Shown here in pieces: positions 3,301 through 63,337 of a stretch of 64,000 nucleotides of DNA; the stretch's first letter is position 1; the number at the start of each line of letters is the position of its first letter. The stretch spans positions 1 to 64,000 of the forward strand of contig NW_025777423.1 in NCBI RefSeq assembly GCF_021130785.1. Direction: 5' to 3'. Source of the DNA: Homalodisca vitripennis (taxonomy: Eukaryota; Arthropoda; Insecta; Hemiptera; Cicadellidae). The notes under the pieces are model-generated. The model ran no database searches. It was not told where the DNA came from and worked only from the letters and a program-made list of their open reading frames with translations. The position numbers were made by a program, and so were the translations under genes.

Positions 3301-4628
3301 TCATTCCAGATACCACCTCTATCAGCTGGTTGCGTAGATTGCCCAAGTTATCGGTCGAGAAATCCACCTCCACTCCACACTTTTCACCCAACAATTTCCA
3401 TTGTTTACACCAATAGATGTTTTTCAAAATTATTTGCTGGGCTAAAATGTAGGGCAAACGGTGGTGTTCTAAATTTAAAATTTTACAAATATAACCAGAG
3501 CTAATTTTTTTAGTGTATGTAACAATCTTTTCAAAATTTGTTTCTAAATATACTGTAAAACATAGTTAGGCGTATTATAAGGTAGACGTAACATTTTTTT
3601 AATAAATGTTCTCTGAACTGATTCTATTGCATCATATTCTGTGAAGCCCCATACCTGAGCACTGTAGCAAATAATGGATCTAATAATAGAATTGAAGCAG
3701 ATAATCTTTGCACTCAGAGGAGCTTTATTAGAAAGAATCAAATTTCGCCAAATTGAATTGATTGGAAATTTAGCCATGGTCAATTTTTCTTGAAAATGCA
3801 GTCCCCAAGATAGGAGCTTGTAAAAAAACATACCCAAGTACTTGTACTTATCGACGACTTTAATTCGTTCTTCTTTTAAAGTCCAATTGTCGTTAGATAT
3901 TAGTTTTTCCGCCATTTATAAAAACCAATATGTTAGATTTAGCTAAATTTATTTTCAAATTCCAAGCTTCGCAATAATGTTCTAGTCTATTAATCATATA
4001 CTGTAGACCTGCAGCAGAAGGCGACATGAGAACAATGTCATCAGCGTACATGAGTGTATTTACCCGTGTACTCCCAAAACTACAACCCCCCTCCACCGCT
4101 TCGGGCAGATCATTCACAAATAGCGAAAACATTAAGGGACTGAGAATACAGCCTTGCCTTAAGCCTATTTTGGTATCAAAACTCTCATTTATATCTCCTT
4201 TGCACCATACATTCGCACTTGTACCATCATAATAATTAGTTAGAACATTTAACATTTTCGTTGAAATACCCATATTCGATAGTTTAAATTGCAACGCTTT
4301 CCTGTCGATGACGTCAAAAGCCAAAGAAAAGTCAATAAAGAAGCAGTATAATTTTCCTTTTTTGTTTGATAGCTGGAGTTTAATAATGTTCGAAAGGTTA
4401 AATACATTATCAATTGTAGAGTATCCTTTTCTGAACCCCGCCTGATATTCAGTTAGCATTTTCTTTTCATTCACCCAATTGTATAGCCTATTATTCAACA
4501 TACTGGTAAATAGTTTACAAATACAATCAATAAAAGACAATCCCCTGTAGTTGTTACTGTCATTTACATCGCCCTTTTTGTACAAAGGAAAAACAATAGA
4601 CTTCTTAAAACTATCGGGTACTACACCC

Positions 4629-4633
4629 GTATT
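4629..4633. repeat. target-site duplication of inner LINE, 3' side
   Basis: GTATT, matching 9150-9154. It follows the pentameric tail of the inner element (minus-strand sense) and begins the resumed RT codons of the outer LINE. Confidence 0.75.
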
Positions 4634-4716
4634 CAAATCAAATCAAATCAAATCAAAATCATTTATTTCTCATTAACATTAACATGTATCGAGAATTGTC
4701 AATATGTATAAAATAA

Positions 4717-7686
4717 CTAAATACTAAAAATATTGCTATATCTGGTAAAACTACAAATTAAAAATATATTGAAAAACAGTACTAATGATAGTTTTACTTG
4801 TAAGGTTGGGTGGTGGGGGCACAAAAATTCAGAGAGTGAGTAAAAACAGTTTTTCACAAGAAAGTCTTTTAGTTTGTTTTTAAAAGATGCAAGTGAAGTG
4901 CTGGCTTTTAAATAATCTGGCAATCTGTTATAAATTGTAGGTCCTAAATATTCTATTGATTTGCGGAACATATTGTTACTATGGTGGGGTACTGTTAAAC
5001 TATTTTTATTTCTGGTGGGATATATATGATTGTGGGTAGGAAAATCGGTAATGTGTTTAAAAGTGTAAATTGATACGGAATAGATAAAAATGGAGGGGAG
5101 GGTTAGTATACGTTCTTGGTGAAACACTTGCCTACAGCTCTCCAGGCCCCTCAACCCAAACACTAAACGAATAGCCCTCTTTTGCAATTTGAATACTCTT
5201 TGTAACAGAGAAGATGAAGCAGTTCCCCATGACATTATGCCATATGACATCACAGAGGAAAAGTAACCATCATATACCATTTTCAGTGCACTACTTTTCA
5301 GAAAATTTGAAAGACATCTTAAGGAAAACAATATCGAGTTGAGCTTAGAGCAAAGGGCCTCCACATGCTGACGCCAAGAAAAACCAGCATCCAGATGAAC
5401 GCCCAAGAAACATACTGAATCAACCTCAATGATGTCAACCTCGTCTAAAGCAATAAAACCCTTAGAAACTGTCTGAGATCGAAAGTGAAGAATGGATGTT
5501 TTGTCAACATTGAGGAATAAATTGTTGCGAATGAACCAAGAGTTCATTTTTTCGATTGTAGTGTTTAATTGAAGATTTAACGCTATTGAAGAGTCTGCCC
5601 GAACAATGACCGTGGTGTCATCAGCATATTGAGTGACGCGAGCCTCAGGGACACAAGAGCTTAAGTCGTTTACATATAAGGCAAAGAGAAGAGGTCCCAA
5701 GATAGAACCTTGAGGAACACCCATGGAGACCTCAACGAAATCTGACTGTGCCGTACCAAAGGAGTTGGTAACCTGGACACTCTGGTAACGATTTGAAAGG
5801 TAGGACCTGAACCACAGCAGGGGACAACCTCTGATGCCGTAGAGTTCAAGCTTATTAAGGAGTTTCAGATGGTTAACTGTATCAAACGCTCTCGTGAGGT
5901 CGCAAAAAACACCAGCTACGTGATTCTGATTGTTAAGATGAGTAAATACATATTTGGAAAATTGGGCAATAGCATCGGTGGTGGATTTAGAAGGAACAAA
6001 TCCAAATTGGGTGTCACTCAGAATGGAATTTCTGATTAGAAAGTCTGTTAGTCTAACATGAATGAGACGTTCGAAGACTTTGCTGATGGTTGGTAAAATT
6101 GATATGGGACGATACTGTTGAGGCGAAGACCTACTGCCTTTCTTGAAAACCGGAATGACCTTAGAGAGCTTCATATCCGATGGAAACTTCCCCTGAAGAA
6201 CTGAGTTGTTGAACAATTGAGTTAAAGGAGGGCTCAAGGGTGAAGCAACCCGTCTAATTACTGAAGGACTCATTCCAAAAACGTCAGGTGTTGAACTGGT
6301 TTTCAAAGATGAAATAGTATTGAACATTTCATGGAGCGTTGTTGGGGCTATGAAGAAACTTGATGGACAGTGGTGTATTTTAGAAGAGCTGTTAGTGCAA
6401 CTATTTGTTCCGTTTATGGTTCTAGCCAGTGGGGCACTCATAAAAAAATTGTTAAACATTTCAGCGATATGACGTGGGTCAGAGACTGCAGCTCCATTAT
6501 CTTGTAGCTCCTGAATATGTCTTTTCCTATCTGTTTGCTTTCCAGAGTTTTCAGACACTATGTTCCATACAGTTTTGGCAACATTCTTACTCTTATTCAG
6601 ACGGCTTTCGATCTGAGATGTTTTCAGAGATGAAATTAGTAACTTGTAGTTTCTCTTATTGACCTTATACAATATCCTATGCTGTTCAGAAGGATAGTCA
6701 CGCTGCAAAATATACAGGTCCTTGAGATGTTCTCTGGCCAAGAGAACTTCTCCTGTCAACCAACCAGGCCTTTGACGTTTTTTACGCTTCGATGTGACTA
6801 AAGGAAAGGCCTGGTTAAAGCAGGATGATACTTGACTGAGGAATAACGAGTATTGGTCATTTATGTCCTCGTATAAGAAAATATTATCCCAATCAACTGA
6901 ATCTAAAAGTTCATAAAGAACATTAATATTTCTGTCTGAGAAAACTCGGTAAGGGGCAGAGTTACACCCCTTAGATGTAATTGACTGAATTACGGCTGTA
7001 ACAAGCTGTGCTTCATGATCGGACAAACAGGAAGGGACCACCTCAGCTCTCACATGGTCAGGCTCGATATTAGTTAAAATATTATCGATGCATGAACCTC
7101 CTGTTGATGATGGGCGGGTCACTGATGAAATCTGAGCTCTAATTGAAAAACTTTGAAAAATGTCGGAAAATAGTAAAAACTGCCTGTCATATTGCCTATC
7201 AAAATGAACATTGAAATCCCCACAGACAAATATCCTCAGATCAGGTTTATGTAGGATTCTAAGCGATTCCTCAAAACATTTCAAAAACAATGAAAAATCG
7301 CCCTGGGGGGATCTGTAAATAGTGATGATAGTGGTGTTTAATTCAACTATGTGAATGGTGATGGATTCAAAATTAAGTTCTGAGTTCAGGTGAGAGGTAA
7401 CCTGCTTTTCCACAACGGTATACGAAAAAGAATCACTGACCAGAGCACATACTCCGCCCCTGATCCTATCAGACCTGCAGAAGCCACCTGCCACCCAATA
7501 GCCCTGAACACTCAGCGCAGCAAAGTTGTTTTTAGATAGCCAGTGCTCGGTTACACAAGCAATGTCGACATTCCTACTGTGTAGCAGAGCTTCTAAAGGA
7601 CCAGTTTTGTTGGAAATTGATTGAATGTTTTGGTGCAGAATCTTGATAGGCGGAGTCTGTTGGACTGACTCTATAATAAAGAGTTG
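4717..7686 (-). CDS. endonuclease-reverse transcriptase (ORF2) of the inner LINE
   Basis: An uninterrupted frame of 989 codons, open from a TAG at 7687-7689. Numbered from the first open codon, the APE-type endonuclease has ILHQNI (N20), TEHWL (E47), CGDFN (D157, N159) and LSDH (222-224). RT follows with VFCDLTRAFD (D595), MGVPQGSILGPLL, and QYADD at 686-690. The C-terminal region (LPDYLKASTSLASFKNKLKDF) is typical of CR1/Jockey elements. The protein nicks the target and primes cDNA synthesis from it. No RNase H or zinc knuckle was seen. There is no ATG before the HQN motif, so translation must depend on -1 slippage from the esterase frame, reinitiation or a non-AUG start. All catalytic residues checked are present, so the domain may be functional. 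Confidence 0.92.
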   Translation of the reverse strand, partial: QLFIIESVQQTPPIKILHQNIQSISNKTGPLEALLHSRNVDIACVTEHWLSKNNFAALSVQGYWVAGGFCRSDRIRGGVCALVSDSFSYTVVEKQVTSHLNSELNFESITIHIVELNTTIITIYRSPQGDFSLFLKCFEESLRILHKPDLRIFVCGDFNVHFDRQYDRQFLLFSDIFQSFSIRAQISSVTRPSSTGGSCIDNILTNIEPDHVRAEVVPSCLSDHEAQLVTAVIQSITSKGCNSAPYRVFSDRNINVLYELLDSVDWDNIFLYEDINDQYSLFLSQVSSCFNQAFPLVTSKRKKRQRPGWLTGEVLLAREHLKDLYILQRDYPSEQHRILYKVNKRNYKLLISSLKTSQIESRLNKSKNVAKTVWNIVSENSGKQTDRKRHIQELQDNGAAVSDPRHIAEMFNNFFMSAPLARTINGTNSCTNSSSKIHHCPSSFFIAPTTLHEMFNTISSLKTSSTPDVFGMSPSVIRRVASPLSPPLTQLFNNSVLQGKFPSDMKLSKVIPVFKKGSRSSPQQYRPISILPTISKVFERLIHVRLTDFLIRNSILSDTQFGFVPSKSTTDAIAQFSKYVFTHLNNQNHVAGVFCDLTRAFDTVNHLKLLNKLELYGIRGCPLLWFRSYLSNRYQSVQVTNSFGTAQSDFVEVSMGVPQGSILGPLLFALYVNDLSSCVPEARVTQYADDTTVIVRADSSIALNLQLNTTIEKMNSWFIRNNLFLNVDKTSILHFRSQTVSKGFIALDEVDIIEVDSVCFLGVHLDAGFSWRQHVEALCSKLNSILFSLRCLSNFLKSSALKMVYDGYFSSVMSYGIMSWGTASSSLLQRVFKLQKRAIRLVFGLRGLESCRQVFHQERILTLPSIFIYSVSIYTFKHITDFPTHNHIYPTRNKNSLTVPHHSNNMFRKSIEYLGPTIYNRLPDYLKASTSLASFKNKLKDFLVKNCFYSLSEFLCPHHPTLQVKLSLVLFFNIFLICSFTRYSNIFSI

Positions 7687-8456
7687 CTAGTATCCGAGAA
7701 CATTGGCGAGGCCGACGGAAGAGCCATGGGGTCAATTTGCTCCTTGTCAGAACAAGAGATGGTTGTGATTGTGGTATTATAGGGAGTTGATGCAGAAGAA
7801 GACAGGTCAGACAGAGGATATGATGTGTCAGGTGAAGAGCTGGTAAAGGTACTGGGACTGGAGGCAGTTTGACAATTGTTTTGGTATGGTATAAAATTTG
7901 ATCCGGGGTGGCCCCTCAACTGCTGCTCAGGAAACAATGCATTCAGCCACTTAGATAGTTTAACACCAAAAAGACTCTTGCCTGCTTTACTTAGATGCTT
8001 GCCACTCTTTGCAAAGAGCCTCTTGGCCAGGAAGTGATTTAAAAGAACCAGAGGGGTTTTAGTTGTTACTGACAGAGAAATGTACATATTGTTGACACAC
8101 TCTATCTCAAAGGCTTTTGCAGGATGCTGTTTCAGCAGTTGAGGTACTTCGGTAAGAACTATTTTACATGAAAAAGTATTAATTATATGTAACAACATTC
8201 CCTTAACCTTTAAACAGTGACCAAGGCTTGTATTGTTAGTGCCTCCAACAATTATAACAATGTCATTTTCATTAAAAGCTTTCCTACAACTGCTTAGCTT
8301 CGAAAGAACAAATGCCATAGAGGCGCCTGGGTAGCAATGTTCGAAAACCTCTGCATTTTTTAAAAGGGGCTGTAATGTTTCCTTAAGATCCCTGGAGTGA
8401 CTATCGCCATAAATATGAATTTTACACTTTGGTGTCAGTCCGGGCTCATTAGACAA
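7671..8456 (-). CDS. SGNH-hydrolase (esterase) domain of the inner LINE, ORF1 part
   Basis: Numbered from the TTG at 8456, the frame shows SGNH block I (YGDSHSRDL, Ser19), a block II-like Gly in YPGAS (G44), block III GGTNN (Asn74) and a block V-like KHLSKAGK (His154). The Asp that normally sits three residues before the His is Ser here. Esterase domains of this type are known in ORF1 of CR1/L2-like LINEs, where lipid binding or membrane association has been proposed. The C-terminal 85 residues are Ser/Thr/Pro-rich and low in complexity. No ATG precedes the GDSH motif: the frame opens after a TAA near 8505 and overlaps the protease frame, so a +1 shift or a single indel joins them. It ends in TAG at 7671-7673. 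Confidence 0.8.
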   Translation of the reverse strand: MSNEPGLTPKCKIHIYGDSHSRDLKETLQPLLKNAEVFEHCYPGASMAFVLSKLSSCRKAFNENDIVIIVGGTNNTSLGHCLKVKGMLLHIINTFSCKIVLTEVPQLLKQHPAKAFEIECVNNMYISLSVTTKTPLVLLNHFLAKRLFAKSGKHLSKAGKSLFGVKLSKWLNALFPEQQLRGHPGSNFIPYQNNCQTASSPSTFTSSSPDTSYPLSDLSSSASTPYNTTITTISCSDKEQIDPMALPSASPMFSDTSNSLL

Positions 8457-9066
8457 AACCGCTTTTGTCCCATGGGGTATTACTGGTTGGTGATGCTTTG
8501 TTTAGTATTACTTTACTAGAGTTTCCATTAAGAGCTATTGTTTTATTGTATTTAGAGACATATGATTTGGCATTTTTTATCAACTCAAAACCACAACTAA
8601 AACTGTCTTTTTGTTGCTTACAATTTTTTTCTTCAAACGAAATGTTTTGGTTATTGAGGACTTTGTCAAGGCTGTTACAAAAATCAAGAGCACAAGTACT
8701 GTTGACTCCTCGCAGGGAATCTAAGTGAACATACTTGCCCTCAACCCTGTTCAAAATAATCAGGCTCCAGTGAGTGCCCTCACTGTTACAGTGTGATTGT
8801 AAATTTTGCGTGGAACCATGCTTAGGAGGCAAAGTAGAGTTACTTATGGGGGCTAGCAAGAGTTTAAAATTAGAACCTGTAATAAAGGAGGGCTGAGACT
8901 GAGAGTAAAGAAACCTAATATCAAGGCACTCAGCCGGTGACAACACTAGTACCTCGTCAGAATTCAGGTCCCTGATACCATCCCAAACCTCCTCATCACT
9001 CAGCCAAGTGGTTTGTTTAACTCTAGAGTTCCCAGTCTTTGGCAAGTTTTTATTCCTCGAACTCAT
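8449..9066 (-). CDS. C48/Ulp1-like cysteine peptidase domain protein of the inner LINE
   Basis: A 205-residue frame; the ATG at 9064-9066 is the first in frame and lies 83 bases inside the element. The N-terminal WLSDEEVWDGI resembles the start of Ulp1/SENP folds (WLSD/WLTD). The catalytic set is visible in the correct order and spacing: H99 in GTHWSL, D116 in HLDSL, Q151/Q152 in CKQQKD and C158 in DSFSCGF. C48 peptidases cleave SUMO or other ubiquitin-like conjugates; the substrate here is unknown. At about 205 residues it is close to a bare catalytic domain. The frame ends in TAA and overlaps the next frame by one register. It could assist ORF1 maturation or remove SUMO from host factors, which is inference only. 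Host capture of the domain is likely. Confidence 0.78.
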   Translation of the reverse strand: MSSRNKNLPKTGNSRVKQTTWLSDEEVWDGIRDLNSDEVLVLSPAECLDIRFLYSQSQPSFITGSNFKLLLAPISNSTLPPKHGSTQNLQSHCNSEGTHWSLIILNRVEGKYVHLDSLRGVNSTCALDFCNSLDKVLNNQNISFEEKNCKQQKDSFSCGFELIKNAKSYVSKYNKTIALNGNSSKVILNKASPTSNTPWDKSGFV

Positions 9067-9149
9067 GCTTTGGGCACCGTTCAAGGTTGAGCCGGAGGAA
9101 GGCGGCGGGACAGGACACCGCAGCCCAACAGGCTTAAAATATTATAATA

Positions 9150-9154
9150 GTATT
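9150..9154. repeat. target-site duplication of inner LINE, 5' side
   Basis: GTATT, matching 4629-4633. In the minus-strand sense it encodes the end of the outer RT segment ...IFNT just before the inner element begins. Confidence 0.75.
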
Positions 9155-9214
9155 AAAAATATTATTATAAATTTCCAAAAGTTTGTTTTTTCAGACTGAT
9201 ATGAGAGTTCTTAA

Positions 9215-9238
9215 AAAACTCATATCAAAACTCATATG
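9215..9238. repeat. 12-bp near-perfect tandem duplication in the outer LINE
   Basis: AAAACTCATAT occurs twice at a 12-base period. In the minus-strand RT frame it follows the PYEF motif and creates an in-frame TGA; the second copy carries on as YEFFKN. It is one of three short tandem duplications that damage element genes in this window. Confidence 0.7.
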
Positions 9239-10754
9239 GCACTCTGTCTAATCCAGGCGCCTTATTAATTTTAGCCTTTTTCAGAACTATTTCCAGCTCA
9301 TGCAATGAAAAATTACAATCGAGAAACTCGTCGGCAATATATGGGCTAGCATAGCTGACGCTTGCAGCTAACAGAGGCGGATAAGGAGTCTTATGAAGTG
9401 TCCGAGCCACTCGTTAGGGGACAAATTTCCGATTATCTTCGGTTCTCGATTTTTAAAACTATTGATTGCATTCCAACATGTTTTGGAATCAGATGCATTA
9501 TACAAATTATATATAATATTATCAAGATATAATTTATGTTTATTTTTACACGTTAATTTGTAATTTTTATTTTCTTCTAAATATTTTTGTTTAACTTGTA
9601 TAGAATTTGACTTTCTAAATAAATTAAGTAAACGGAATACTTTCTTTCTAGCAGTTAAACATTCATGGTGAAACCAAGACTGCTTAGCACTGAAAAAAGT
9701 ACATGTGTTCGGGGTTTCTTTTAAGTGAGCAGATTTAATAATACATTTTATTATATTGTTTATGTTAAGTTGATTGTCATTGACAAGCTGCACCTGAGCA
9801 ATTTCCCGACCAACTTTGTCGCGATAATGAATCTCGTCACCTTGTGTCCATTTGAGTTTCGGCAATAACGGTAGGGTTTCGCCCCCCATTCGCGCCCCTC
9901 CCACAGCAACAGGAGCGTCCACACTGAGGGTTACCTCTATTGGCAAGTGGTCAGAACTAGGGAACGGTACAATTCTGAAATCTTTAATCATATCAAGACA
10001 ATTAATTGAAGCCGCCGCGAGGTCTATAACTGAATTCCCCATTGGTCTCACAAAAGTAAATTCCCCATAAGTATCACCCGCAGATCGCCCATTCAAAATA
10101 ACTAAACCCAAATTATCGAATAGTTCTAAACATTTTTTACCTCTGACATTTACTAACCGATCTTTTGAATTTCTACTTTCATTTAAACTGTAGTTAGTCA
10201 ATCCGAACGTTTCATAAATCTTGTTCAGTTCCAATTCAAGCGTTCAAATCTCCCATAATAACTAAATTGCTAATAAAATTTGCTTTAAAGAAGGACTCTA
10301 CATTACGAAAAATAGTTTCCCAACCATTAAAGTTTAAATAAAGTGGAAGAATCGATATAATTTTTCTTCCAGTATTGATTTGTACAAAGTTAAGGTGTTC
10401 TATTTGGATATACTGTATTTTTGAATTAAATTTTGAATCTAAATTGAACAAAATAATTAATCCACCACTATAACGACCAACATTAGCTACTCTAGTTGCA
10501 TAATCAAAGTGAATTCTATAATTTTTAAAATGGTTTGAGATAAAATCCTTGTCGTGTTCTGTTATGAAAGTTTCCAAAAATATAAATATATCGTAATTTC
10601 TAATCATTTCTTTAAATCCAACGTCTCTCACCTTATTCTTTAGACCACATACATTAAAAACTAAAATTTTACATTTTTCTGTTGCTCCACCGAATTCATC
10701 TGCACTAACGTTGACCTGCTGCCTCGTCCGGGGTATGGAATTGGCGTGTCCTCC

Positions 10755-28433: not shown

Positions 28434-31400
28434 TTAGAGGGGTAAGCCTATCTTTGTGCCCTTAATTAGGCTAAGACGCTTTTCCCCGATACTAGCATCT
28501 GGTTCGTCGCCTGGTTGTTTATCACCGAAAAGAGCCCTTCTCCTTGCTCCCAGTCTCTCACAGTCCAGTATTATGTGTTTTGCAGTCTCTTCAGACTTAT
28601 TGCAGAGTCTACACTCCGAGTCCTCATTTCGTAAACCTAGAGTGTTTAGGTGTTTCCTGAAGTGGCCGTGTCCAGTGATCAAGGCAATCACTTGCTTAAC
28701 CCGATCCCTGCCCAGCCCCATCAGCCATCTGGTGAAGCCGGAGCTAGAATCAGTGAGCAGTCTTTTGCCGAGTGCTTGTCCTTGGTGACTCTGCCACCGC
28801 AAGCGGTGTGTCTTCCTAGACCATTTGTTTATACTTTGGTAAGCGGCTGACTTGCTTATACCACAACTCGGTTCTGGACCGGTGTATGGCATGCTTGCTC
28901 CGCTTTTGGCAAGCCTGTCGGCGTATTCGTTGCCACCTATGCCTGTGTGGCCCGGTACCCAACCAAGACGCACAAAGTTGCGTGATCCAAGCTTGCAGAG
29001 AGTGTTAAAGCACTCCCACACAAGCCTGGATGAAATGCTGTTGGAGTCAAGAGCTTTAAGAGCTGCCTGACTGTCTGACATTATACAGATGTTCATTCCC
29101 TGATACCCTCTGGTGAGGCCTAGGTTGGCACAGGCTAGGATACCATAGATTTCGGCTTGGAATATGGAGCAGTTCCGACCCAAACTGCCGCAAAGGGCAG
29201 TTCTAGGGGATTGACTAAACACTCCATATCCAGTTCTTCCCTTAATAAGCGAGCCATCCGTGTACCAGACAAAGCTCTTTCTTATTGTTGGGATGTTATC
29301 TTGCGATTTCCACTCATCTCTGGAGTAGAAGTCAACAGAGAATGGCTTATTGAATACGAACTCCGTTCTCATTATGTCGGAGACCATTTCGAGAATAGCG
29401 CTTGGGTTTACAGCTTCAGTGATGGCACCATGGCTCGCGTTAGACGCGCCATTCCTCCACAAGCCAGCAACCATCAGCCGATAAGCTGACTTACGCGCTT
29501 CAGCTTTTATATGGACATAAAGAGGTAGAAGTCCTAAAGCCACCTCGAGGGTCGCTGAGGGACTGCTCCTGAATGCTCCGGTTGCAAAGATTGTGCCAAG
29601 CCTTTGCAAGCTTTCAAGCTTGGCTTTGGCAGTTACCTGATTCACCTTTGTCCACCAGACTAATGAACCATAAGTGATTTGAGGCCTTACAACTGCTTTG
29701 TAAAGCCATAGTGCTATATGGGGTTTTACGCCCCATGAGATTCCTGCAAGTCTCCTGGACGTCATGAGCGCCCACTTTGATTTGTGCAGGATATTGTTAA
29801 GATGATCATTCCACGTAAGCTTATGGTCTAGAGTCAGTCCTAAATATTTAACTGTCTTTGACCACTCAAGCTGTGTGGATGCGAGTTTCAGCCTAGAAAG
29901 AGACTCTAGGTTCTTTTTCCTAGTGAATGGTACAACTACTGTCTTAGAGGGATTTACTTTCAGTCCCTCTCCCTGACACCAGTTGTGTACATGTTGAAGG
30001 TTGGTATTCATGATATCAACAACAACATTTGTATATTTTCCCTGTACCATAAGGACTATGTCGTCTGCATATCCTTGGACATAGATTCCATTGTTAGTAA
30101 GGTCCTCAAGTAGACCATCTACTACTAGATTCCACAGTAGAGGTGACAGGATGCCTCCTTGAGGACATCCCCTTGTAGGTGCGATCACAAGCGATTCTTC
30201 ATTGAGATCGGCCCTGATCCGTCTGGAGCACAGCATGGACCTAAGCCACCGGCACAGAGCTGGCTCGAGGCCACGTCGCTGTGCTCCACTTACCATCGCA
30301 GTGAATTTAGCATTGTCAAAAGCTCCTTCAATGTCTATGAAGGTGCACAATGCCAATTCCTTGGCGCACAGGCTATCCTCAATCCTACTGACTAGTTGGT
30401 GCAGTGCTGATTCACAGGATTTACCTTGCTGGTATGCATGTTGGTTGCGATGAAGGGAGTGTTTGAGAGAACTCCCTTTCTCAGGTGCCTCTCCACCAGT
30501 CTTTCTAATGTTTTCAGTAGAAACGAAGATAAACTGATGGGACGAAAAGATTTAGGGACAGAATAGTCCGCTCTCCCTTTTTTAGGGATGAAGACCACCC
30601 TGTTGAGACGCCAGACTTGTGGTATGTACCCATAAGCTAGGCTCGCCCTGAATAGTTCACATAGAAGGGTAAGGAGATTCTCCGGCCCTTGTTGAAGCAG
30701 GGCCGGAAAGATTCCATCCCCTCCTGCAGATTTGAAAGGGGCAAATTTAGAAATTGCCCATTTGGTTTTAGAGAGAGTGACAATCCTTCTGGCAATGGCC
30801 CAGCCACCACGATAAGCTCTTGGCCGTGAGCCTGCCTCATGGTTACCAGACGTTCCAGTGTCGTCATTCTCAAAGATACAATCAGGGAAGTGAGTCTCAA
30901 GGAGAAGTTTGAGGCTATCACTAGACCCGGAAGTGTGTTGACCTCCCTGGGACCTTAATGATCCCAAGTGACCGGTTGGACCTGAGACTAGTAAACGTTG
31001 CAGTCTAGCTGCCGCGCTTAACTCATTTACCTTCTGTGTAAACTGCCTCCAGGAACTTTGTTTTGCCTTTTTAATTGCTAAGCTGTATTCTGTTAGAGCT
31101 CTATGATATGACTCCCAGATACGGCTCCTTTTGCATTGATTGTACAGCTTCCTGACATTAGCCCTTTTGCGAGCGAGGTCCGCAGTCCACCACTTAGTAT
31201 TGGTTCGACTCTTCCCCCGTCGCAATGGACGATTGTCGTGGAAGCTATTGATTATAGCATTCTGCAGGTCAGAAGCTATCTGATCTATGTCTGTGAAGCA
31301 TCGCACCCTTCCGCCTACCGATCCCAACTGTGACTGAAGGTCAGACTTATATCCCAACCTGTCAGTCCTCCTGGGATTGCGATAGAGGACCTCTGCAGCC

Positions 31401-32080
31401 TCATCTTGCAAGTTGAAGCGGATATACCTGTGATCCGATAATGAGGCCTCTTCGCTTACGTGCCACTTATCAACCATTCCAAGTATACCTTGTGTGCAGA
31501 TTGTTATATCAATAACTTCTTGTCTAATTCGTGTTGCGAACGTAGGGCGGTTACCTTTATTACATATAAATAGGTCCCTACTTAGAAGAAATTGTAAAAG
31601 TGCCTCACCTCTGGGGTTAGTGTTGGTGCTGCCCCATCCAGCAGAGTGATGGGCGTTGGCGTCACAACCTAGAAGAAGTTGTTGACGTCTGGCTTGTGCT
31701 TCTTCCACCAGGAGCTCTAGGTCTCTTGATGGAGGGAGTTCCCTGGCATCATATGGCAAGTATACGGAGCCTACAATTGTGCTCTGCACTATGCCTCCAT
31801 TCTTCCAGGTCAGTGTGCCCACAGTGAGATCTCTGGAGCAGAATTCGTTGAGGGTTAGAAAATCCAAGCCTCTCTTCAACAGGATGCAGGTCCTGACATT
31901 CCTTAGAGAGGTACAGTAAATTAACTTACCTTTGGTTTGATTTAGGCCCGCCACTCTCCCTTGGTGAAGCCATGGTTCTTGAATCAATGCCAGATGAAAT
32001 CCCTCCTGGAGGAAGAACTGGCAGAAGGCTGCCGAGGCAGCCCTACTGTGTTGGAGGTTGATTTGTAGAACTCGTGGCAT
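28434..32080 (-). pseudogene. ORF2 of the LOA-type LINE: endonuclease, RT, RNase H; one frameshift
   Basis: The first ATG (32078-32080) opens MPRVLQINLQHS, the endonuclease start. IQEPW, GCDANAHH and SLSDHRYIRF follow, then RT (FRPISLSS). Near 30470 one frameshift breaks the protein; the correct continuation is visible in the next frame (HRNQHAYQQGKSCESALHQ, then FIDIEGAFDN). RT goes on through RGCPQGGILSPLLW and GYADD. RNase H is complete: in the 640-residue downstream piece the catalytic residues are D367 (YTDGS), E402 (AEIYG), D428 (SDSQ) and D480, with H470 in PGHTG. A C-terminal CCHC (CRLCNKSEETAKHIILDC) ends the protein. About 1,215 residues would be expected. Apart from the frameshift it looks intact. 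Confidence 0.9.
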
Positions 32081-33314
32081 TGTCCTTGACTGTCGAGGAG
32101 ACAATTGAGACCTGCCAGAGTCCTAGGTTGGCTCTACAGTTGGAAGCCTTCACAGCCTTGTAGCAGACCTCGTCCAGGAAACAGACGAATCCGTAACCTT
32201 TCGGATCTGGCTTGGATGGAAGGATTTTCCACTCGTTTACATTTAGGTTGGGATTCTGCTTTTTGAACATTTCAAGTACCTTTTCAGGTGTCTTCTTCAG
32301 AAGCTTCGAGTGAGCTCTGAAAAACACCCTAGTGGACCTCAAGATGTCCTTACGCAGACCCACTCTCAGAGAGATGTCATCTCCCAGAGGTTTTATTCTT
32401 TGAATAACTTCTTCCAGACAACGTTTGGTGTGCTCGTTGATGCATGAAGCAATTAAAACACCTTTCTCTAGATAGGTGCCCGCAAACGATGGAACGGAAC
32501 CATCCTCCAGGGGTTGGATTTCTTCCATAATTGCGTCCTCGATGGCTTCTCCTTGCTCTGCACTAAGCTTCGCCTCCGGGTAGCCTTCGAGGGCTATGGC
32601 CATTTTGATCGCTGCGACCTCTCTGTAGGTAGCCTTGGGTGTGCTACCAGAGGCCTCGGGATCGTGGGCTTCGGGATTTTGGGTTTCCCTCCTAGCCTTC
32701 TTTGCGGGCCCCTCAGCGGAGGGTGGAGTGACCAAGGTGCCTCTGGGGCGTTTGGCCGACCCCTCCCCCGCCTTGGTACCCGCAGTTGGGCCCGGAGTTG
32801 AGACCTCCTGCCGTTCTGGATTCTTTTTCTTCTCTTTCCCCCTTCTCCACTTGGAAGGGTCAAAAGCTTCACCCTTTTCAAGAAGTTTAGCCTTTAGTGC
32901 TTCTCTTCTTTGAGCAGTGGTGAGATTAGGCCTCTTCATTCTGAGGTTGCCGAGTTGCTTTGTGGCATCATCCAGCGTACCTGTAGACATGGGAGTGCTT
33001 GGGCTGTTGAGGAGTTGATCTTCTATATCTTGAAGGGATTTTACTTCCTCAGCGCTTGTACTACCTTCCTCAGATAAAGCCTTGCCATGTATGGGAGCTT
33101 CAGTGTGCAATGGAACCTCCTGTGTTCCTAAGGCACTTTGTTGAGGAGAAGGTAGGGATGTTGGCATAACAACCTCTTGAGTTGTGTTGCCAGGTGATGG
33201 TATGTGCGAGGTAGCTTCAGGAGCTACCTCAGCAGGAAGAGGTAGGTTAGAAACAGCTTCAGGAACTGTTTCAAGGGTTGGTTGGTTTTGGTTTTTGTTT
33301 CTGTTTTTCTTCAT
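32043..33314 (-). CDS. ORF1 protein of the LOA-type LINE, DUF4780-like RNA-binding domain
   Basis: 423 residues from the ATG at 33312-33314. Residues 1-110 are Pro/Ser/Thr/Glu-rich and probably disordered. Residues 120-215 are highly basic (RMKRPN, KWRRGKEKKKN, KRPRG, KKARRE), suiting nuclear import and RNA contact. From about 225 to 410 a folded domain (TYREVAAIKMAI ... PSFAGTYLEKGVLIASC ... GYGFVCF) resembles DUF4780, seen in ORF1 of LOA-like elements. No CCHC knuckles are visible. It would package the element RNA with ORF2. The last 38 bases overlap ORF2 in another frame, so ORF2 translation is probably coupled. The frame is uninterrupted. Confidence 0.8.
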   Translation of the reverse strand: MKKNRNKNQNQPTLETVPEAVSNLPLPAEVAPEATSHIPSPGNTTQEVVMPTSLPSPQQSALGTQEVPLHTEAPIHGKALSEEGSTSAEEVKSLQDIEDQLLNSPSTPMSTGTLDDATKQLGNLRMKRPNLTTAQRREALKAKLLEKGEAFDPSKWRRGKEKKKNPERQEVSTPGPTAGTKAGEGSAKRPRGTLVTPPSAEGPAKKARRETQNPEAHDPEASGSTPKATYREVAAIKMAIALEGYPEAKLSAEQGEAIEDAIMEEIQPLEDGSVPSFAGTYLEKGVLIASCINEHTKRCLEEVIQRIKPLGDDISLRVGLRKDILRSTRVFFRAHSKLLKKTPEKVLEMFKKQNPNLNVNEWKILPSKPDPKGYGFVCFLDEVCYKAVKASNCRANLGLWQVSIVSSTVKDNATSSTNQPPTQ

Positions 33315-33703
33315 GTTGTTCCCACGAGTAGCTAGGGAATGGAGGGTCGACCCAGACAGAGCCCCGCATGCCTGGGTAAGCTTTTTTTAAACTGGAGGGT
33401 CCCCGGTGTCCAGAGTCCGCATAGTAAAGACTGGTTTGCCACCAGCCATTCAGCCCTGGCCTACGCTGTTCCACCGTGGCTTGGCCCCTAGTGGGAGAAA
33501 TGAAAGGAAAACTAAATCGAAGGGTTGAGGAAGTTTACCTCAGATAGAAGAGAGTGAAGAAGAGAGATAGGCTGACACATAGAAAAGTGTGCCAGCCATA
33601 GGCCTCCAGAACAAGAAGAGAAGGGATCTGGAGCATTAGCTAGGGTACCTCGGGATCGCCACTACCCGTACGGCCTCGAAAGTAAGACCGCCCCTGAGGG
33701 CTG

Positions 33704-61203: not shown

Positions 61204-61618
61204 GGGACACATATTGTCCTAGACAAAACAGAAAAAATATAAATGATAGTTTGTATGAAAATAAAGGTAAATTTAAGTGTTTTTATGTAAGTGGAGTATT
61301 TAGTTTTTGTTAGGTTGGCAACCAGCTGCTCCACAGCTTCAACATTGCTAGCAACAGCTTTTTTATACTGGCCATATTGTTGGAAAAAGGTGTGTTGTTT
61401 GAGGTTATGGTCATGTAATGTTAGTAAATAATTGTCTACTATGTTTAAAAGTATTATTTAGTTCATTAGTGAGTTAGACTTGGTGTTCACGTTGGTCATA
61501 TAAGTAGTTTTTATATTTGGTATAAGTTTTTACCAATTTTTTCAGTGAACTATATTTGTAATTGTTTCACGGGACACATATGTTCCAATGGTAGAGGACA
61601 GTGGGACAAATATATCCC
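61204..61618. promoter_or_regulatory. three GGGACA palindromic motifs near the piggyBac left end
   Basis: Imperfect 16-bp palindromes GGGACACATATTGTCC (61204), GGGACACATATGTTCC (61571) and GGGACAAATATATCCC (61603) flank the leader of the transposase gene. The last two are 32 bases apart and both are followed by (A/C)ATTGG/CAATGG-like bases. Subterminal repeats in piggyBac elements bind transposase, and that is the likely role here. The two inner copies also sit just before the ATG, so autoregulation is possible. Confidence 0.6.
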
Positions 61619-61636
61619 ATTGGTATAGGAGTTAAT

Positions 61637-63337
61637 ATGGGTGACAATTTAGGCTCAAGTGAAATTGACAAGGAACTGAATGAGTTTCCTTCTGAAATCA
61701 GCAAACTATTTTACGATAGTGGCAATGATCCGGAATATATTCCGACAGACAATTCTGATAGTGAGCAGGATGTACCCTTTTCTGATCATGAGTTGGAGGA
61801 TGCAATCTCTGAGTTACCAGCAGCATCATCAGTCCTTCCTGCTGCATCAGTAACATGTGATAATGTCACTTCTGTGACATGGAGAAAGGTAAGTGATACT
61901 TTTCTACCAAGAAAAAAGAAACCTGAAAAAAGGCGTCCAATAATACTTGAAAATGTTGATAGAGGTTCAAGCGAACTGGAAATTTTCTTTCAAGTTTTTC
62001 CTAAAAGTCTATTCATGTTTATTTCTCACTGCACTAACCAGAGACTAGACTTGTTACAGAAAAAAATAAAAATAAAAGTAGAAATGACAAATTGTTATGA
62101 TATTATGCTTTTAGTGGGATGTATTCTGGTCATGTGCTACAACTATCTACCTAGCCTCTCAGATCATTGGTCAACTCATGACTCAATGGGTAATAAAGCA
62201 ATCAAACTTGCTATTTCAAGGCAACGATTTCAGCTATTAATTTCTAAAATGTATTTCAATTTGCCTGAGCAACCCGAAAATGCTTCAAAGACATATTATA
62301 TCGATGAAATGATATCATGTTTGAAATTTACCTTTCCTAACGCAAGAAGTGAAGCAAGTTATCAAAGCATAGATGAGTCTAGATGAGTCCATGGCAAAGT
62401 TCAAGGGAAGATCTTCCCTCAAACAATGTCTACCTTTAAAACCAATAAAAAGAGGCATCAAACTATGGGAAAGGTGTGACGCTGAGACTGGGTACTGTTA
62501 TGATTTGAATGTTTATGCTGGGAAGGAGACAGAGAATGTCGATGGTACTCTAAGCGAAACAGTTATAGAAAAACTTTCGTCTAGCATTCGAGGCGATAAA
62601 GGAAAAGTTGCACTATCGTTTGATCGGTTTTTTACTTCTGTAAACATACTGAATACCATCAGCCACCCTTGTGTTGCTACCTGTATTAGTAATAGAAAAA
62701 ACATGCCACACTTTGATAAAAAGCTGGAAAAGGGAGAGTTCGACTTTTTGGGGAATGATCTTGGTGTCCTTGCTGCTAGGTGGAAGGATTCAAAAGAATT
62801 TGTGGTCCTCAGCAATTTTCACAAGGATACTGTTACAAATGTTCAGCGAATGCAAAAAATTGGCGAGAAAAAACTAGTCCTATGTCCTGAATCAACTGCT
62901 TTCTATAACGAAATCATGGGCGGTGTAGATCTTTCCGATCAGAAAGTTAGTATCTATGATTTTGACAGAAAATCTAAGAAGTGGTGGAAGAAGTTATTTT
63001 ATAAGCTCTTGCTAACTTCTGTTGTAAATGCTTGGATTTTATATGAAGAGATTCAACATAAAAAACCTCTTTACTGTCATTTGTTGTTCCACTAGCTGAT
63101 CAGCTGTTGTGTGAAGGACGGAAAAAAACATCAGTGAAAAGAAGAATGAGCTGTGGAAGACCATCAAAAAGGGCAAAATACATGGTAAATGTTGGCTCAC
63201 ATTTACCAGTTAAAGAGACCACCAGACGGAGGTGCAAAAGTTGCTCTGAAAATAAATTCGAAAAGAGAACAAAAACCATGTGTGTGGAATGTAATATACC
63301 TCTATGTAAGGACTGTTTTTCAAAGTATCATTTATAA
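61637..63337 (+). pseudogene. piggyBac-like transposase (DDE_Tnp_1_7), frameshifted
   Basis: The ATG at 61637 opens MGDNLGSSEIDKEL. An acidic N-terminal region is followed by the core domain (FFQVFPKSLFMFI, NCYDIMLLVGCILVM). The piggyBac Asp triad is present: SIDES before MAKFKGR near 62372 and 62385, SFDRFFTS near 62620, and MGGVDLSDQ near 62925. The C-terminus (63107-63334) carries a cysteine-rich finger, RRCKSCSEN...CVEC...CKDCFSKYH, typical of the family. Two lesions break the frame: a perfect 10-bp tandem duplication at 62370-62389, and a shift near 63075 where the next frame carries on as FVVPLADQLLCEGRKK. Without them about 560 residues would be encoded. The enzyme cuts and pastes DNA at TTAA. 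Confidence 0.85.
62370..62389. repeat. perfect 10-bp tandem duplication inactivating the piggyBac transposase
   Basis: TAGATGAGTC is present twice in a row. One copy fewer gives a continuous frame through the first catalytic Asp. Confidence 0.9.

Follow-up and report, generated by a model that had tools for sequence, protein, structure and literature searches.

The first 64,000 nucleotides (nt) of contig NW_025777423.1 of Homalodisca vitripennis (the window) contain a copy of a long interspersed nuclear element (LINE) on the minus strand, at positions 4634–9133. In the full copies of this element, a C48 peptidase domain and an SGNH esterase domain form a single open reading frame (ORF1), which is followed by an overlapping frame (ORF2) for an apurinic/apyrimidinic (AP)-type endonuclease (EN) and a reverse transcriptase (RT), and slippery heptamers are conserved in the overlap of the two frames. 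We tentatively propose that AP-endonuclease LINEs of this kind form a large and ancient clade that would combine a retrovirus-like mode of expression, with a protease-bearing, gag-like ORF1 and a pol part fused to it by a -1 frameshift, with a SENP8-like deneddylase or deSUMOylase shielding the element from silencing that depends on ubiquitin-like modifiers; this combination is possible rather than probable.

The features of the window copy, which belongs to the family that we call A, are as follows.

4634–9133, minus strand: 5'-truncated LINE copy, whose identity to full copy L040 is 99.6% over 4500 nt.
4634–4656, minus strand: 3'-terminal short tandem repeat (TTTGA)n, read from the sequence.
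4717–7494, minus strand: ORF2, AP-type EN and RT (RVT_1, E 1.5e-35; Exo_endo_phos_2, E 8.3e-7), open from stop to stop at 4720–7686.
7671–8456, minus strand: SGNH esterase part of ORF1, in a different frame from C48 here and in the same ORF as C48 in L040.
7674–7680, minus strand: position of the -1 slippery heptamer, adjoining the ORF1 stop; the window has TTTATTA, and 12 other copies of family A have TTTTTTA.
8449–9084, minus strand: C48 (Ulp1/SENP8-like) peptidase part of ORF1 (Pfam, E 1.4e-5), open from stop to stop at 8452–9141.
8770–8772 (His), 8719–8721 (Asp), 8611–8613 (Gln) and 8593–8595 (Cys), minus strand: catalytic codons of the C48 domain.

A genome search with the C48 peptide gave 150 scored matches among 793 candidates. 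At nine places, including the window, the identity is 97–100% over C48 residues 1–208 or more, without stops. In the full copies, ORF1 is a single frame of 782 codons, or 747 when counted from the first Met, and the EN-RT frame comes next and overlaps it. Because C48 and SGNH form one ORF in the full copies, the C48 domain is not an independent protein, and a separate protease gene was rejected. The bare protease frame described by the first-pass annotation is a fragment of ORF1; in the truncated window copy, the C48 frame and the SGNH frame overlap in different reading frames.

In families A, B, and C, ORF1 is composed of a FLYWCH zinc finger, a helical region, the C48 peptidase, and the SGNH esterase, with EN-RT downstream. 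Families B and C share this domain order at about 40% and 29–42% identity to family A, respectively (BLAST segments). FLYWCH and Peptidase_C48 score above the Pfam cut-off in the ORF1 of families A–C, while the SGNH match of the full family A ORF1 is weak. The helical region before the esterase is probably a coiled coil, and its Pfam coiled-coil matches are weak. The ORF1 of family D has a helical-looking N-terminus, C48, and SGNH, without FLYWCH. By eye, the family A ORF1 (L039, L040) also contains a tandem repeat of ~33 residues, whose copy number varies among otherwise near-identical copies.

The module extends well beyond these four families. Eight C48/SGNH sequences combined into a profile retrieved 53 proteins; 64 proteins were in hand, and 32, picked mainly by length and score, were aligned. 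Twenty-seven of the 32 span both domains and, with families separated at a C48 identity below 80%, represent 23 families with C48-SGNH. At E 0.01, 26 of the 32 have a Pfam match to C48, 16 to Lipase_GDSL_2, and 6 to FLYWCH. In the C48 tree, the presence of FLYWCH requires two to three changes, and the long branches of P0006 and a bacterial row meet. Seven sister ORF1s (P0044, P0046, P0050, P0053–P0055, and P0063) have an RH1-like coiled coil and SGNH, and no Pfam C48 match was found in them at E 0.1.

Some of these proteins appear to derive from other organisms. The best matches in this genome reach 52–53% over the length of the metagenomic protein P0012 (short parts up to 70%), 44–45% over C48-SGNH of P0009 (FLYWCH part up to 67%), and 31% over both domains of P0035 (parts to 38%). 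Since the both-domain identity is only 31–53%, other genomes appear to be the source of these three proteins and would then carry the C48-SGNH module, although the assembly may be incomplete. P0022, whose tail is identical to that of L058, may come from the same insect, as may other nameless proteins. GenBank proteins of H. vitripennis match the translated copies at 97–99.7% (P0010, P0003) and 99% (P0013). Several GenBank proteins of this insect (J6590) carry the name 'SUMO1 sentrin specific peptidase 8' and appear to be ORF1 products of the LINEs described here; such database entries would be LINE proteins.

The window C48 frame matches Pfam Peptidase_C48 with 25.5 bits (cut-off 20.7), and in the Protein Data Bank (PDB) it matches SENP8 at 3.6e-6. 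When a profile of six families, the window family included, was searched against the PDB, it matched SENP8 first (3.9e-18), followed by two bacterial effectors, one of them named NopD (2e-13), whereas yeast Ulp1 scored 0.0056 and SENP1 just 0.09. Judged by these scores, the nearest solved relative of the domain is SENP8 and not SENP1/2. SENP8 is a deneddylase. The term deSUMOylase-like used at first pass is therefore too specific.

The catalytic residues H99, D116, Q152, and C158 of the first-pass annotation correspond to H105, D122, Q158, and C164 counted from the first TTG, and they are near-invariant. Among the 32 aligned rows, one of which is gapped at each position, His is found in 30 of 31 (one Arg), Asp in 30 of 31 (one Tyr), and both Gln and Cys in 31 of 31, in the His-Asp-Gln-Cys order of the C48 family. 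A Trp directly follows the catalytic His in all 31 rows. Additionally, an N-terminal W-x-x-D motif, which we take to be part of the clamp for the Gly-Gly tail in SENP8, has its Trp in 25 of 30 rows and its Asp in 27 of 30, the other three having Glu. The C48 identity between families is 19 to 69%. Moreover, C48 and SGNH divergences across the 23 families are correlated (Mantel r 0.73, a value reached in none of 5000 permutations). For selection within families, the non-synonymous to synonymous rate ratio (dN/dS) was pooled over one pair from each of families A–D, the B pair being chosen from six and the C pair from three; 11 synonymous and 7 non-synonymous changes in C48 give a dN/dS of 0.17 (one-sided p 0.0003).

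An AlphaFold model of the window C48 domain (8 rows) has a mean predicted local distance difference test (pLDDT) score of 67.7 and a predicted template modelling score of 0.65. In the model, His105 is placed before the strand 106–112, Asp122 ends the strand 117–122, and Cys164 is near the start of the helix 161–191, an order of elements that presumably fits the C48 arrangement. The support of the model for a C48 fold is modest.

For the esterase, the window SGNH frame alone gives a Pfam E of 0.075. The six-family profile matches the ORF1 esterase of the zebrafish LINE ZfL2-1 (4c1b) at 1.5e-10, and family D alone matches it at 9.2e-5. The catalytic Ser (GDS) and His (GxH) are invariant in six full ORF1s. 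In contrast, Ser or Asn replaces the catalytic block V Asp in families A, B, and C and in P0008 and P0009, and the Asp is kept in family D and in the D-type rows where the block was located. A GYNGGxGK loop is conserved inside the esterase of most D-type SGNH domains and is absent from families A–C. With the domain matches above, the central claim of the first-pass annotation, a LINE with a C48-type enzyme and an SGNH esterase upstream of EN-RT, holds; as far as sequence goes, the protease is kept in the other copies and families and matches the C48 profile there.

ORF2 overlaps ORF1 and occupies the -1 frame relative to it. Family A (12 distinct copies in addition to the window) and family B (5 copies) have U_UUU_UUA in the overlap, directly before the stop position. 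Similarly, U_UUA_AAC directly precedes UAA in the family C overlap, and G_GGA_AAC is located 30 nt before the ORF1 stop in family D. All four families have an X_XXY_YYZ heptamer in the zero frame within the overlap and the downstream ORF at -1. According to codon shuffles, the chance of such a heptamer in the overlap is 0.012, 0.027, 0.027, and 0.094 for A–D, respectively; the values for A and B, two related families, are not independent. In copies of A–D, the open frame of ORF2 has its first ATG at residue 410, 156, 139, and 78, the C frame being a 217-residue fragment. In the available text of PMC5009743, U_UUA_AAC and G_GGA_AAC are among the most shift-prone sites, and U_UUU_UUA is the site of HIV.

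The same arrangement was sought in 20 further D-type junctions (L056–L075), taken from stop-free places among 61 scored. In 15 of them, the distance from GGGAAAC or TTTTTTA to the ORF1 stop is exactly 30 nt, and ORF2 is in the -1 frame; by eye, these 15 are about nine types, with different flanking residues and intervening codons. L068, L069, and L072 are one family with GGAAAAC at the heptamer position (by eye in L068; the script picked other frames for L069 and L072), and the junction scan found no heptamer in L056 and L074. At the protein level, the signature SGN-x10-stop is present in 18 of the 64 proteins, and its carriers without a Homalodisca name include P0012, P0014, P0016, P0021, P0022, P0024, and P0059. 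The sister ORF1s without Pfam C48 have C-terminal tails in SGN (P0044, P0054, P0055), GNGQ or GNGQL (P0046, P0053, P0063), and SEN (P0050), which suggest a similar slippery site, and the -1 site seems to be older than, or independent of, the C48 protease. Collectively, the junctions are most simply read as sites of -1 ribosomal frameshifting, through which ORF2 would probably be produced fused to ORF1, while reinitiation at a non-AUG codon may be an alternative.

On this basis, we propose the following mechanism. ORF1p would be the main product of the element, and a -1 frameshift, either at the ORF1 stop or shortly ahead of it, would yield a minor ORF1-EN-RT fusion. The C48 domain would remove NEDD8, SUMO, or ubiquitin from proteins near the ribonucleoprotein of the element, and its substrates could be silencing factors of the host or proteins encoded by the element itself. 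The SGNH esterase might target membranes or lipids, a role that has been proposed for ZfL2-1. We favor an isopeptidase acting in trans on ubiquitin-like modifiers, for which we see about even chances, since it fits the SENP8-like sequence and the Trp conserved next to the catalytic His. The sequences show the architecture, its conservation, and the slippery sites; the activity of the enzyme, its substrate, its benefit to the element, and the frameshift are inferred, as are the two roles suggested for the protease at first pass, countering silencing and processing ORF1.

Several observations weigh against this trans-acting isopeptidase or the fusion. The C48 domain of family D is under the Pfam cut-off (E 0.22), and B, C, P0008, P0009, and P0032 have another residue in place of the N-terminal Trp. 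The C48 dN/dS rests on 18 changes and includes post-insertion ones, and the least favorable B pair (2 synonymous, 3 non-synonymous) shifts the pool to 10 versus 9. In the structural model, the mean pLDDT is 67.7 and residues 86–103, directly ahead of the catalytic His, are below 50. Linker Gly-Gly pairs are present in P0008, P0016, P0017, and P0035. Furthermore, a shared downstream RNA structure was not seen, as single folds of eight junctions differ.

The Gly-Gly pairs bear on a second role for the peptidase, in which it would cut the ORF1-ORF2 fusion, and perhaps ORF1p too, in the manner of a retroviral protease. Such self-processing is attractive because a fusion protein is likely, given the -1 position of ORF2, the canonical heptamers, the late first ATG, and the 15 of 20 junctions with a heptamer 30 nt before the stop; NeSL and Utopia-1_TSP, which also have a Ulp1-like protease upstream, provide a parallel, and the GYNGGxGK loop could be read as a further Gly-Gly site. 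However, no Gly-Gly was found between the ORF1 domains of families A, B, C, D, or P0009, and the loop sits within the esterase and is absent from A–C. Moreover, the slippery-type tails of the seven sister ORF1s without C48 imply that a fusion would not require a protease. We consider self-processing the main rival of action in trans, and clearly less likely than it.

It is less probable still that the C48 domain is a non-catalytic module with a structural role or one in binding ubiquitin-like proteins. The weak Pfam score of family D would fit such a module, and the loss of the block V Asp indicates that enzyme residues can drift in ORF1, but the His, Asp, Gln, and Cys of C48 are kept near-completely at a C48 identity of 19–69% between families. 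The chance capture of an unrelated C48 gene fragment, by one copy or through a nested insertion, is barely conceivable. The window copy is indeed a nested insertion with separated C48 and SGNH frames; nevertheless, a captured fragment or nested chimera was rejected in view of the nine stop-free places and of the divergent families with C48 and SGNH in one ORF.

The features around the window copy are as follows.

3544–4628, minus strand: host LINE of the insertion, 3' part (RT), from frames, Pfam, and joined-flank matches.
4629–4633, no strand: left target site duplication GTATT, a single GTATT in four aligned empty sites.
9134–9149, no strand: filler between the truncated 5' end and the target duplication, outside the match to full copies.
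9150–9154, no strand: right target site duplication GTATT, a single GTATT in four aligned empty sites.
9155–10631, minus strand: host LINE of the insertion, 5' part (EN), the same LINE as 3544–4628, from frames, Pfam, and joined-flank matches.

The copy in the window is young, lacks its 5' end, and is nested inside a different LINE. It differs from L040, in the same 2.3 Gb genome, by 14 mismatches and 5 gap bases over the 4500 nt, and its homology to the full copies begins at sense base 17, with the 5' truncation at about 9133. A genome search with the joined flanks yielded, among 83 candidates, 40 scored matches that span the joint. Four of these matches were aligned; because each is continuous across the joint with one GTATT, GTATT is the target duplication, in agreement with the duplications first reported around the element. 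The window flank differs from the four matches by 12–13 additional bases, located away from the joint. EN and RT, 5' truncation, a target duplication, and a simple 3' tail, the hallmarks of an AP-endonuclease LINE, are all present in this copy.

Elsewhere in the window, three long minus-strand frames at 28437–33386 are, we assume, another LINE, and two plus-strand frames at 61595–63092 presumably resemble a piggyBac-type transposase. In the genome, a different multi-copy element (L001–L008) has an integrase-like frame and, behind it, a second frame that reaches 438 codons and matches C48 more strongly (E to 2.5e-23); the element may be Ginger- or LTR (long terminal repeat)-like.

If the C48 domain is active, many LINE families would carry a directly assayable isopeptidase, through which SUMO/NEDD8-dependent control of transposons could be approached in a plant-feeding insect. 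The conserved slippery heptamers, in turn, provide a testable answer to the production of ORF2 without an early start codon, as a gag-pol-like fusion.

LINE ORF1 esterases and LINE Ulp1-like proteases were each known already; their union in one ORF1, together with slippery junctions, was not found described. Specifically, the literature searched, which was mostly non-subscription, yielded no description of C48 and SGNH in one AP-endonuclease LINE ORF1, in part with FLYWCH and with -1 slippery junctions; a RepBase entry could exist. The first-pass view that a LINE with a protease and an esterase is undescribed thus stands for the union, whereas the protease by itself has precedents: the nematode LINEs NeSL and Utopia-1_TSP, because of which the reading 'first LINE with Ulp1' was rejected, are non-LTR retrotransposons with a Ulp1-like cysteine protease upstream of RT (PMC4640811). 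According to the available text of that paper, in which 'esterase' occurs 0 times, they have a restriction-like endonuclease and one protein; in contrast, the elements here have an AP-type EN that is N-terminal to RT and two overlapping ORFs.

The esterase side has its counterpart in ZfL2-1, with the esterase-type ORF1p of CR1/L2/RTEX LINEs, where a coiled coil is followed by an SGNH esterase; 'ulp' and 'flywch' occur 0 times in the available text of PMC3905857. Bdelloid retrotransposons with a GDSL esterase ORF3 also place an SGNH/GDSL hydrolase in a retroelement, but they are of LTR type, and 'ulp', 'sumo', and 'c48' occur 0 times in the available text of PMC5408684. For the C48 domain, the closest solved relatives, SENP8 (1xt9, 2bkq) and the bacterial effectors 8oi3 and 8rqi (NopD), are cellular or secreted enzymes outside mobile element proteins. 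Ginger1 and Mutator are mobile elements with a C48/Ulp1 domain; unlike the LINEs here, they are DNA transposons, and in the available text of PMC2836005 the Ulp1 domain of Ginger1 is at the transposase C-terminus. Regarding expression, the text available of PMC5009743 mentions, for LINEs, that HeT-A gag requires a frameshifting event and that the mechanism of TART is unknown, and it names no -1 site for ORF2. The same U_UUU_UUA, U_UUA_AAC, and G_GGA_AAC heptamers serve there as the -1 sites of HIV and coronaviruses, which are viruses, while here they are found at the ORF1/ORF2 junctions of LINEs.

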